Source: Candidatus Bathycorpusculum sp. (GTDB lineage: Archaea > Thermoproteota > Bathyarchaeia > Bathyarchaeales > Bathycorpusculaceae). Taken from it: 44,751 bases of DNA. The notes under the pieces were generated by a model. That model did no database searches. It was not told the origin of the DNA and saw only the letters and a program-made list of their open reading frames with translations. Positions within the stretch are counted from its first letter, which is position 1. Each line of letters opens with the position of its first letter. The stretch spans positions 1 to 44,751 of the forward strand of contig WRJX01000095.1 in assembly GCA_009778385.1 (NCBI GenBank). Reading direction: 5' to 3'. Positions 38,222 through 44,474 of the stretch are shown here, one piece after another. A program made the position numbers and the translations under genes.

Positions 38222-38986
38222 ATGAAAAGCAGGTTGACAGTGTTTAGAGAAAGAAAAATACCGCTTGAATTAAACGATTTGGAAACAAAAATTGCATATC
38301 ACACGTATGAAGACATTGAAACTAACACTTTGCTTGTTGCTTTTTCAGAAAAAAGAAGAGTGCTCTCAACTGTAGACGGATACAGAAAAGTCAACTACGT
38401 AGGCAATAGTTATATTCCGCCAGAAATTGAAAAACTCGTGATGACTATAAAAGATTACAAAAGGTATGAAAAACAATTACCTCTAACTTTAGGAATCAAG
38501 CCAAGCCAAATTACATTTATGAGCACTGGAGTAGATATGGATAAAATTGCAGTATGCCAAAAAACCTACAAAGACCTAAAGGTTTACTGCATAGCAACCT
38601 GTGGAGCTAAAGACAACGCTTTACGCATGGGTGTAGACTCTGGCGATTGGGTAGAAACTAAGGCAGGTTTTGAGTTATCAACAGGCACCATAAACATACT
38701 GCTTCTCACAAATGCAGTTTTAACTACAGGAGCAATGGCTAGGTCAATAATGACTGCCACTGAAGCAAAAACGGCCACACTTCAAGACCTTAACTATATG
38801 AGCACAGCCTCACCACAAATTCAAGCCACAGGAACTGGAACAGACACCATGATTATCGTTTCAGGTACTAACCAACAAAACACGATACATTATACTGGAG
38901 GTCACACAAAAATGGGTGAATTAATAGCTAAAGCAACAAAAACGGCTGTAACACAGGGGCTAAAGAATTTTGACAGAGAAAATTAG
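38222..38986 (+). CDS. cbiZ: Adenosylcobinamide amidohydrolase CbiZ
   Basis: A 254-residue enzyme that cuts the amide bond of adenosyl-pseudocobinamides and similar corrinoids, giving adenosylcobyric acid so a cell can rebuild imported corrinoids. Visible family stretches are IKPSQITFMSTGVDMDKIAV, IATCGAKDNALRMGVDSGDW and ATGTGTDTMIIVSG with HYTGGHTKMGELIA near the C-terminus. It is divergent from BtuFCD, a common CbiZ context in archaea. GTAGGTAAG precedes ATG 38222. The rest of the salvage pathway is not in the window. Confidence 0.93.
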   Translation: MKSRLTVFRERKIPLELNDLETKIAYHTYEDIETNTLLVAFSEKRRVLSTVDGYRKVNYVGNSYIPPEIEKLVMTIKDYKRYEKQLPLTLGIKPSQITFMSTGVDMDKIAVCQKTYKDLKVYCIATCGAKDNALRMGVDSGDWVETKAGFELSTGTINILLLTNAVLTTGAMARSIMTATEAKTATLQDLNYMSTASPQIQATGTGTDTMIIVSGTNQQNTIHYTGGHTKMGELIAKATKTAVTQGLKNFDREN

Positions 38987-39001
38987 CGAAAAGGAGCGAG
39001 T

Positions 39002-39055
39002 GTTTATGGCAATATCGCCATAAACGGTGAGGTTCGAATCCCACCCCCTGCACCA
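39002..39055 (+). other. tRNA 3'-end fragment with adjoining perfect hairpin, probable attachment site remnant
   Basis: From 39027 the sequence reads GTG-A-GG-TTCGAAT-CCCAC, a T-arm with one inserted A (39030); without it all five stem pairs form. An acceptor strand CCCCTGC (39045-39051), discriminator A and encoded CCA follow. No 5' half (GCAGGGG acceptor, D-arm, anticodon arm) is found upstream, so this is not a working gene. Directly before it GTTTATGGC-aatatc-GCCATAAAC (39002-39025) is a nine-base-pair perfect hairpin. The integrase relic starts 100 bases on, so an old integration target or attachment remnant is the natural reading. Confidence 0.65.
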
Positions 39056-39155
39056 ACAAGATGTGTCTGGTTCTCTTCCTCAAATTTCGGCTCAAAAAAC
39101 CCAAAAAACAAAACCAAAATCTCCGCCTTTAAAAATCCCCGAACACATAAGGGAC

Positions 39156-40374
39156 ATGTCAACAAACAAACCAATACACGACTACGCCCAGCGCATAAAA
39201 CGAAACCGACACAACATACAACAACTCCCAAACGGACAACTAGGACTACAGTTTTTAGATCACCTAAACGCTTTGGGGCTGTCACTTGGTCGCGTGTCCA
39301 AATGTGCCGCACCTGCCCGTATTACTGCGCATAATAGATGGCGCAGACATTAAAGCCATGACAAAAACCGACATAGAACACATAGCCGCCCAAATAAACA
39401 GTAGACCCAACAAAGAATCCACCAAAGCAGACAACAAACTCCTCTTACGCAAAGTAGTTCAATACGCCAAACAAGGCAGTTGCGCCAAAAGCACCCCAAT
39501 ACCACCCGAAGTAAGCTGGATAAGCTTAACAGTAAAAGAAAAAAACCCCAAAGTCACACCAGAAAACTTGCTTACCCAAGAAGAAATAACTGCCATCCTA
39601 AAAGCAGTCACAAACAAACGCGACCGAGCCATCATATATGTACTCTTTGAAGCCGCCCTACGCCCAAGCGAGTTACTAACTATGAGTGTTGGCAGTGTAC
39701 TTTTCAAAGACCAATACTGCTTAATCGCCGCCAACGGTAAAACAGGCATAAAACGCATGCCCATAGTCACCTCAAGCAAACCCCTACTCCAATGGTTAGA
39801 AGAACATCCCTATAGAGATGACCCCCAAGCGCCGCTCTGGTGCTCCTTAGCAGTCAACCACACAGGCGAACGCTTAAGCTATACTCACTTCTGCAAAATA
39901 ATAAAAAACCTAGCCCAAAAGGCAGGAGTAAAACGAAACGTCTGGCCATATCTATACCGTCATACATCTTTGACTGCTATGGCTAAAGTGTTTACCGAGA
40001 GCAGACTTGAACAGTTTGCAGGCTGGACATATGGAAGCAAAATGACAAGACGTTATGTGCATTTTTCCGCAAGGGACTTAGAGGACGCAATGCTAGAACT
40101 ACATGGACTAAAGATACCTTCAAAGGCTGAAGGATTAGCTAAACTGGTTGAGTGCCCCCGATGTAGTAGTAAAAATCCTTTTGGAGACACAAGATGCACA
40201 ATCTGCGGCATGATACTAGACAAAGAGACTGCCCTAAGATTTGAAGACACCCAAAACCAAAAAGAAACAAAACTACAAGAGAAAAATTTGGAACTACAAA
40301 AACGCCTAGAAAAATTGGAAGGTGTTATTTCAACTCTTCTACCCGCCTCCCCTTCACCGGCTTCTCCGTATTAG
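39156..40374 (+). pseudogene. Tyrosine integrase with C-terminal zinc ribbon, frameshifted
   Basis: The N-terminal SAM-like part starts MSTNKPIHDYAQRIKRNRHN and runs to GLSLGRVSK. It then leaves frame near 39301, where two bases seem lost; expected reading continues HLPVLLRIIDGADIKAMTK in the next frame. The catalytic domain has Arg in AALRPSELLTMS, Lys in ANGKTGIKRMP, YRHTSLTAMA (Tyr where the usual HxxR has His) and the nucleophile Tyr in TRRYVHFS. A zinc ribbon (CPRC, then CTIC) and a coiled coil end the protein. The open frame upstream of ATG 39156 extends back through the tRNA fragment. Typical of archaeal provirus or plasmid integrases. Confidence 0.8.
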
Positions 40375-40812: not shown

Positions 40813-41159
40813 CATTATCTACCCTGTTGGTGTGGTTTTTCTGTGAATGCGCAGGATTTGTTTGAAGGCTATAGTTTGTTTTTGGCGGGTTTGTTTATGT
40901 GGGGGCGAAAAAAAGCGGCGAGTGGTTGCGCTGGTTGTTGGGGTGTGAGGTTTATTGGCAGGCAGGCTTTGTGGAGGTTTTGCTTAATGTTTGTTGTGTG
41001 TGAATGTAAAATGGGAACGCTCAAAAACAGTTTATTTTGATAAAATATCTGCGAATAAACCCAAATAAGCAATAAACAAGACTTATTTACGAGCCATATG
41101 GTTAAAGAAGCTTGAAATGAGCAAATGAAAAAAGAGGAAATTCTGGAAAAAGTTTGGAA

Positions 41160-41490
41160 CCCACCAAAAACAACCCCATTAACCAAAATACCGTGGGAAC
41201 ACACCCCCAAACAACAAACGCACCAACATTTATGCCTATAAAAAGTCAAAAAACATACAAAATACACGATAAAACGGGAAAAACCCAAAAAACATGGTAA
41301 ACCACCAAAAACAACCCCATTAACCAAAAAACGCGTAAAAAACCAACCAAACAACAAACAAAACCACTTTTACACCCCTACAATACACAGTTTTACAAAA
41401 TTTAGGGTAAAAAAACCGTTAAAAACAACCCCATTAACCATAATCTAATGGGAAAACACAACCAAACAGAAAACAAAACCCAAAACACGC
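41160..41490. repeat. Three degenerate ~65-base direct repeats, iteron-like
   Basis: The 20-base core AAAAACAACCCCATTAACCA occurs exactly at 41166, 41307 and 41421. Each is followed by a looser copy of a tail containing CCAAACA(A/G)(A/C)AAAC about 45 bases later, so each unit is ~65 bases. Starts are 141 and 114 bases apart. A-rich strand bias and direct orientation recall iterons at plasmid or viral origins. They are too far apart for a CRISPR array. No replication initiator gene is seen nearby. Confidence 0.65.
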
Positions 41491-42074: not shown

Positions 42075-44474
42075 ATGATTAAGAGCATCAAAGAGTGCGC
42101 CTTATACAAGGAGAGACTTGATACGGATAGACAGGCTATTCTAAATAGTTGTGAATCTTTCCTTAACACTCTTTGGGATGGGGATAGAATAATTCCATAT
42201 TATACAGATCACGGGCTTATGCACTCGTTAAGGGTTATTGAAAATATTGAAAAAATGCTAAGATTAGATGTAAATGTAAAGAGCGATATTCTTAGTGATG
42301 ATGAGATATTTTTGTTATTGTTAGCCGCTCTACTTCATGACATTGGTATGCAATGTAACTTGAGTTCACATAAAGAAGTTAAAGAAAAAGCAACAACTAT
42401 GGGTGCTTTATTTGAGAGCAAATTCGGCGATAAACTTGATGATGATAATAAAGAAGAAATACGTAAGTATCACCATATTATTACATCCGCTTGGTTGCTT
42501 GATGTCTCAAAGTCGCCCGATAGGGTTACAAATGTACCTCTAAGAGATGCTTTAAGGGATTTAAAGAGAAGTTTACGGTCAGATTTACGAATAATTTGTG
42601 AGTATCATTCAAAGAAAAACATTGATGAGTGTGACGAGTTTTCTAAGATTGATGGCAGAATTAGGCTTCGTTTTTTGGCGACACTTTTACGCTTGGGTGA
42701 TGAACTTGATATAAGTGAAGACCGAGTGGATATAAAAAGGGTAAAGATGTTCCCTTATCCTGAAAAGAATAGTTTTTATTGGTATCTGCATAGTCAAACA
42801 AAAGTTAAAATCATCAACAACAAAATATCCCTGAAACTAATGCTTAGCGAGAATGATGTTGGTAATTACAAGCATGAATTTGTTAAATATATAAAACAAG
42901 ACTTCTATGAAAAAAATTCAGGTATCATCGAACTGTTACAGGGTAAATACAGTTTACCTATTTTTCTCGATGTAGCAGAAAATTGTGTTGTAGAAGGCGA
43001 CTATGAAGATCTGCGTGACGAAGTTATATCTATTCTTGTAGATTATGTTAATAAAAGCATGGCTCAAGAACAGGGTGTAGACCGGCAACGTGATGTTAAG
43101 CAAATTTCTTTTGACTACACAAATTCGCTCACAATGTTGGCAGAGCAAGGTGACGCTAACACACAATACCGTTTAGGTCGTTGTTATAATGGCGAAAATG
43201 ATGAACAGGCTATATGTGTTTTCAAGGATATTAATGGGCAAAAAGTAATTTTTGATGAAAATTTGCTAAGTAAACACCTGCTATTTATAGGCGGAATCGG
43301 CACAGGCAAAACAAACGCGATTTATCAGGTTATAGAGCAATTTCAAGCTAATTTATCAGAAAATGACGTTATGGTTATTTTTGACGCGAAAGGCGATTAT
43401 TACAAAGAATTCTACCGTCATGGACTTGACATTGTTATTAGCAACGACGATAAAAGTGTCGGGATTGATGGAAAAAAGGACTATTGGAACATTTTTAATG
43501 AAATTGAACGCGACAACCACATGGAAGAAAATATTATTGAAGTTTCCAAAACACTGTTCAATGAAAAAAGAGTTAAATCACAACAGCCATTTTTTTCGCT
43601 TGCAGCAAAAGACTTGTTCAGCGCAGTATTGTTCCATTGTTGCCGCGATAAAGATAGTGAACGTTTCTATAACTCCGACCTTCGGCAATTTTTGGAATCG
43701 GCGAATGTTGAAATTATATTGAAAATGATTAATCTACACGGCGACCTAAAGGCAATGAAAAATTACGTCGAGGACGGCACTTCAAATATAGCCTTGGGCG
43801 TATTAGCCGAATTACAAGAATTGATAAGAGAAATTTTTGTCGGTAACTTCAAGCAAAAAGGTACCTTATCGATAAGAAAACTTGTTCGAGAAAAGAAAGG
43901 GCGAATAATCTTTATCGAGTACGATATAGGCACAGGGAAGACGCTTACCCCCATTTATAGCCTTTTGTTTGATCTTGCTATAAAAGAGGCGTTATGCCGC
44001 ACAAAAAACGAGGGAAATGTGTATTTTATTGCCGATGAGTTCAAGCTGTTACCACATCTGCAACATATTGACAACGCCGTTAATTTTGGGCGCAGTCTTG
44101 GCGTAAAGTTTTTGATTGGTGTGCAGAACATTGAGCAGGTTTATGAGGTGTACAGCGGCAGTAAAAACGGAAGTGAACGCGCAAGGAACTTACTGTCGAG
44201 CTTTTCAACTTCTATTTGTTTTAGAGTAAACGACAAGAAGTCACGCGAATATATTCAGAGCTTGCACGGAAAGAACAGAAAATTGGAAACTTTTATGTCA
44301 TCCATACCAAACAGGGGTATTGAAGAGAAAATTCGTGAGGCGTATGTTGTAGAAGATTGGGACATCTCACGGCTGAACATAGGACAGGCAATTATCGGAC
44401 TACCGAACAACGCGCCCTTTTTGTTTACGTTCAAAGAATATAAATCCAAAAAGCAAAACCCATTGATTTCATAA
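42075..44474 (+). CDS. HD phosphohydrolase domain fused to Sel1-like repeat and VirD4/TraG-like ATPase
   Basis: A 799-residue cytosolic protein with no membrane helix. Residues ~40-215 form an HD domain: YTDHGLMHSLRVIENI (His46, His50), LLAALLHDIGMQ (His88-Asp89), KYHHIITSA (His133), CEYHSKKN (His178) and LLRLGDELDIS (Asp209). This resembles HD domains recruited to prokaryotic conflict systems. After a helical part comes one Sel1-like repeat, LTMLAEQGDANTQYRLGRCY (352-371). The ATPase follows: Walker A FIGGIGTGKTN (404-414), Walker B VYFIADEFKLLP, Gln684 in IGVQNIEQV, and RVNDKKSREYIQSLHG as in TraD/VirD4. A nuclease or nucleotidase activity driven or gated by a DNA- or RNA-translocating ATPase is inference. 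A leader hairpin masks the start region. Confidence 0.75.
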   Translation: MIKSIKECALYKERLDTDRQAILNSCESFLNTLWDGDRIIPYYTDHGLMHSLRVIENIEKMLRLDVNVKSDILSDDEIFLLLLAALLHDIGMQCNLSSHKEVKEKATTMGALFESKFGDKLDDDNKEEIRKYHHIITSAWLLDVSKSPDRVTNVPLRDALRDLKRSLRSDLRIICEYHSKKNIDECDEFSKIDGRIRLRFLATLLRLGDELDISEDRVDIKRVKMFPYPEKNSFYWYLHSQTKVKIINNKISLKLMLSENDVGNYKHEFVKYIKQDFYEKNSGIIELLQGKYSLPIFLDVAENCVVEGDYEDLRDEVISILVDYVNKSMAQEQGVDRQRDVKQISFDYTNSLTMLAEQGDANTQYRLGRCYNGENDEQAICVFKDINGQKVIFDENLLSKHLLFIGGIGTGKTNAIYQVIEQFQANLSENDVMVIFDAKGDYYKEFYRHGLDIVISNDDKSVGIDGKKDYWNIFNEIERDNHMEENIIEVSKTLFNEKRVKSQQPFFSLAAKDLFSAVLFHCCRDKDSERFYNSDLRQFLESANVEIILKMINLHGDLKAMKNYVEDGTSNIALGVLAELQELIREIFVGNFKQKGTLSIRKLVREKKGRIIFIEYDIGTGKTLTPIYSLLFDLAIKEALCRTKNEGNVYFIADEFKLLPHLQHIDNAVNFGRSLGVKFLIGVQNIEQVYEVYSGSKNGSERARNLLSSFSTSICFRVNDKKSREYIQSLHGKNRKLETFMSSIPNRGIEEKIREAYVVEDWDISRLNIGQAIIGLPNNAPFLFTFKEYKSKKQNPLIS

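Follow-up and report, generated by a model that had tools for sequence, protein, structure and literature searches.

The window, that is, the whole stretch of DNA that was analysed, is the entire contig C95 (44,751 bases) of a draft genome of 2.18 Mb in 105 contigs. Close to its right end there is a gene (42075-44474; this and all the features given below are on the forward strand) which encodes a protein of 799 amino acids as a single, uninterrupted open reading frame starting with ATG. The product consists of an N-terminal HD-CE phosphohydrolase module (residues 1 to about 325, 42075-43049) and a C-terminal soluble TrwB-like ATPase (residues 341-799, 43095-44471). They are connected by a linker (residues 326-340, 43050-43094) without homology to either HD-CE or the ATPase family. 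The earlier note had seen here a stand-alone or edge-truncated system. The gene itself is complete and stops 277 bases short of the contig end; on the left, the only visible side of its neighbourhood, it stands alone with an integrase gene nearby.

That upstream gene encodes a tyrosine integrase (39286-40374; PF00589, E = 7.5e-17). Just before it lies a 72-nt sequence resembling the 3' end of a tRNA (GGTTCGAATCCC...CACCA, 38985-39056), which is 83% identical over the 72 nt to a copy on contig C88 and is probably the remnant of an attachment site. No complete tRNA was called at 38985-39056 or at the C88 copy, and a complete tRNA at this position was rejected. The second copy (locus L178, 20000-28414) is found near the end of C88, with dUTPase-, deaminase- and transposase-like reading frames not far off, and the region is possibly another integrated element. 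Downstream of the integrase and upstream of the fusion gene, three imperfect direct repeats of about 54 nt with a AAAAACAACCCCATTAACCA core occupy non-coding DNA (41127-41474). No defence genes are visible adjoining the fusion gene, whose right flank lies beyond the contig end, and no relaxase or type IV secretion system (T4SS) genes were seen to its left among the 25 commonest families in the window.

Regarding the N-terminal half, the match to HD-CE (PF24391, residues 41-239) reached E = 6.7e-30 and 105.1 bits, versus a curated cut-off of 27. When 13 diverse HD-CE sequences were aligned, T44, H46, H50, H88, D89, R130, H133, H178, D209, D212 and R217 were invariant. These comprise the HD-site residues H46xxxH50 (42210-42224), the HD motif H88-D89 (42336-42341) and the metal-site residues H133 (42471-42473), H178 (42606-42608) and D209 (42699-42701). 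The lack of conservation among homologues that the earlier note had considered is thus the opposite of what was found, and the full set of metal-binding residues it listed stands with the exception of H134, which varies among the 13 sequences.

The two modules were aligned and folded separately; in a mixed MAFFT alignment the HD rows were misaligned. Structure prediction and fold search, as had been suggested, recovered an HD fold and a TrwB-type ATPase fold. The AlphaFold model of HD-CE was of moderate quality (pLDDT 69.5, pTM 0.76) and showed similarity to the HD domains of Ppx/GppA, with a weaker resemblance to class I phosphodiesterases and SAMHD1; the sequence profile also matched PDEB1. 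The substrates of Ppx/GppA and of class I cyclic-nucleotide phosphodiesterases are nucleotides or polyphosphate, not nucleic acid. With Ppx/GppA and these phosphodiesterases as the nearest solved folds, the cleavage of nucleic acid first proposed for this domain amounts to a guess.

In the C-terminal half, residues 393-734 matched the Pfam family TrwB_AAD_bind (E = 2.7e-42). The Walker A motif GGIGTGKT (residues 406-413, 43290-43313) and the Walker B motif VYFIADE (residues 649-655, 44019-44039) are both present, and G406, G409, G411 and K412 of the former and D654 and E655 of the latter are invariant in 34 sequences. The same is true of R673 in NFGRSLG (44091-44093), a candidate arginine finger, and of Q684 (44124-44126), a putative sensor-type glutamine. 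The AlphaFold model was good (pLDDT 88.2), and its best match in the PDB was TrwB (Foldseek E = 8e-21, TM about 0.6-0.7), followed by Cag-beta, HerA and SIR2/HerA defence complexes. This agrees with the original description of a complete P-loop ATPase of the coupling-protein type. It was equally right about the absence of a membrane anchor from the 799-residue protein, in which the sole hydrophobic peak (residues 78-96) belongs to the helix that carries the HD motif.

The joint between the halves is clean. The window protein has VKQISFDYTNSL at residue 341 (VKQIS...), and stand-alone ATPases of the same family begin with (M/V)K.I.VF(D/E)GN.L in an N-terminal alignment. Since the N-terminus of the stand-alone family is kept at this point, nothing of the ATPase half is missing, and the joint, at about residue 341, falls at the start codon of its homologues. 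A separate internal start of the ATPase was rejected because the codon there is GTT, which is not a start. Just downstream, residues 355-375 (LAEQGDANTQYRLGRCYNGEN, 43137-43199) look Sel1-like by eye and are longer than the matching stretch of the stand-alone ATPases. They had been counted as a single Sel1-type repeat, which the Pfam model does not support: Sel1 (PF08238) gave no match in the whole protein (Pfam, E<=1), in the fragment (E<=10) or at this place in a genome-wide model scan. AlphaFold assigned very low confidence to residues 335-365.

GC3 is 0.30 in the HD half versus 0.40 in the ATPase half. This shift at the joint, together with the short distance from the gene end to the contig end and the single instance of the fusion (see below), would fit a chimeric assembly or a recent, non-functional fusion confined to a single metagenome-assembled genome. 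Such an origin seems quite improbable, considering that the joint is in frame, that HD-CE and the N-terminus of the ATPase are whole, that every catalytic residue is intact and that both halves lie inside the contig's own codon range.

To place the ATPase, a collection of genomes from 84,980 species was scanned with two exact peptide patterns and the best 80 loci were kept, a procedure that rare divergent fusions could escape. The relatives at these 80 loci are stand-alone soluble proteins with a median of 441 residues, which share up to 62-63% identity with residues ~379-790 of the fusion and are hosted mostly by Lachnospiraceae and other Clostridia. Stand-alone ATPases were also found in records titled Cloacimonadota, Verrucomicrobia, Micrococcales, Bacillus-type genera and Dyadobacter. 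They carry no membrane anchors, and a VirD4-like ATPase without an anchor is not the oddity it was taken for, since the closest relatives form a whole soluble family. The idea that the ATPase half is a truncated coupling protein was rejected on the identity of up to 63% along the whole protein and on the N-terminus that it shares with this family of about 440 residues. The ATPase of the archaeal fusion is a fused member of this soluble family and was probably acquired horizontally.

Unlike the fusion, the stand-alone proteins (e.g. L017, L018 and L020) are without HD-CE, and their genes are set among those for zinc-ribbon membrane proteins, YARHG, PP2C, vWA and ThiF/JAB proteins and a putative zincin metallopeptidase, a set that is not characteristic of defence loci. 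This family (L017-L084, e.g. L018:7932-9227) could be tied to no clear named system. Several of these neighbours (PP2C, vWA, ThiF/JAB and zinc-ribbon membrane proteins) are of a signalling type. They would fit, as would the fold similarity of HD-CE to Ppx/GppA and class I phosphodiesterases, an enzyme of signalling or nucleotide homeostasis with no role in defence, in which the ATPase would relay a cellular signal and the substrate hydrolysed by HD-CE would be an alarmone, a cyclic nucleotide or polyphosphate. We regard this as unlikely, given the patchy distribution, the integrase next to the fusion gene and the occurrence of HD-CE in transposon- and virus-like contexts.

The relation to the T4SS coupling proteins TrwB, VirD4 and TraD has also been considered. 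The fusion shares with them the nucleotide-binding domain with an inserted all-alpha domain, and TrwB is the best match by both fold and sequence. Hence, in a mobile-element context, the protein could be an ATPase that serves an integrated element in coupling or transfer and has an accessory HD domain. The differences from the coupling proteins make this very unlikely: the fusion lacks an anchor, carries HD-CE at its N-terminus and has no relaxase or T4SS gene in view on its left side among the 25 commonest families. Such genes are also uncommon beside the homologues; when 136 neighbours of homologous ATPases were scanned, none of the 25 commonest Pfam matches was a relaxase or T4SS family, so that the homologues do not as a rule sit in relaxase operons, a finding that the earlier note would have taken as refuting its reading had all of them done so. 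A coupling-like protein of Haloarcula (L009) which adjoins an annotated relaxase is membrane-anchored and just 31% identical. Moreover, the fusion scored far under the NCBIfam cut-offs for TraD_Ftype (92 bits versus 521) and the VirD4-like CD1115 family (65 versus 250). A conjugation operon was rejected on the missing anchor and on the absence of a relaxase from the 25 commonest families, both in the visible window and beside the homologues.

HD-CE proteins (PF24391) elsewhere have the same metal site as the fusion and are likewise coupled to a large second part, an NTPase or repeats; some of them occur in mobile contexts. This is in line with the original view of the HD domain as a conflict-type module. 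Their partners differ from that of the fusion, being AAA-like (L002, L206), HSP90-type ATPases (L003, L131, L209) or TPR (L010) and never a TrwB-like ATPase; HD-CE is also found alone. The nearest HD-CE, with 39% identity over residues 15-321, comes from a genome of the order Oscillospirales and belongs to a P-loop, AAA-like protein of 1,182 residues which adjoins three serine recombinases. In a related archaeon, an HD-CE/HSP90-type protein (L003:1369-3192) matches the PADLOC model RT_UG24 across its HD-CE part, which suggests that the defence reverse transcriptase RT_UG24 carries an HD-CE-like domain. An HD-CE/HSP90-type ATPase fusion of 980 residues (L209:4827-7769) lies on an IMG/VR viral contig and adjoins a replication-initiator-like gene.

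The fusion of HD-CE with a TrwB-like ATPase was found once across everything searched. It was absent from some 1,400 sampled genomes: 257 of the same class, 398 from across the phylum and, for the two orders to which a pair of clostridial genomes belong, 392 and 394. No HD-CE was present on the best 80 loci of the ATPase scan. Plasmids, phages and viral contigs did not yield it either. A phage origin was rejected: the ATPase was unmatched in phage records and viral contigs, and only the HD-CE/HSP90 protein was found in viral contigs. No description of HD-CE, or of an HD domain with VirD4, was found in the open literature, mostly without subscription papers, and neither PADLOC nor NCBIfam holds a named family of this architecture. 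Both halves belong to known families; their combination had no precedent in the material searched, the open literature included, in accordance with the initial impression that it had not been described.

Among known defence systems, the HerA-effector complexes (SIR2-HerA and others) resemble the fusion in that a motor ATPase of the HerA/VirD4 group is paired with a hydrolase effector. In these complexes, however, the two are encoded by separate genes, the motor is HerA and not of the TrwB type, and the effector is SIR2 or a nuclease and not HD-CE. The fusion scored 22 bits against the HerA family model NF042943, below its cut-off of 800, and the PADLOC HerA matches covered its P-loop region only. 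The PADLOC model mad8 (the MADS ATPase Mad8) gave 59.9 bits over residues 390-781, also a partial match. With only partial matches in PADLOC, the protein was not assigned to a known defence system.

This analogy, the mobile setting and the fact that the NTPase or sensor part paired with HD-CE is exchangeable lead to the reading that we lean towards, tentatively and with a confidence somewhat short of even: the gene would be the cargo of an integrative element and encode a cytoplasmic, ATPase-gated HD effector, probably used in conflicts between mobile elements or against viruses. The TrwB-like ATPase would probably assemble into a hexameric ring, as TrwB and HerA do, and could bind or move DNA, or possibly protein, using ATP. 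HD-CE would act as a metal-dependent phosphohydrolase whose activity may be gated by the ring. Its most likely use would be against competing mobile DNA, the ring recognising invading nucleic acid and HD-CE then hydrolysing a nucleotide or nucleotide-like substrate. A more specific claim, that this is a new archaeal defence effector borne by a mobile element, with HD-CE under the direct control, within one chain, of a TrwB-type ring ATPase derived from soluble bacterial proteins, is possible and more doubtful. Several points speak against an effector. The fusion is a singleton, no defence genes are in view beside it, the stand-alone ATPase family is not as a rule found in defence loci, the HD-CE model is of moderate quality, and a nucleotide, an alarmone or polyphosphate could each be what the HD domain hydrolyses.

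The fusion adds a DNA-motor-type ATPase to the AAA-like, HSP90-type and TPR partners of HD-CE, and the general logic of one HD effector with an exchangeable NTPase or sensor thereby becomes testable. Should it act in defence, one gene would make up the whole system. Furthermore, it draws attention to the soluble TrwB-like ATPases without anchors, a family that is widespread in gut bacteria and apparently little described. Among the neighbours of these stand-alone ATPases, the MADS models mad2, mad3 and mad8 had one match each.
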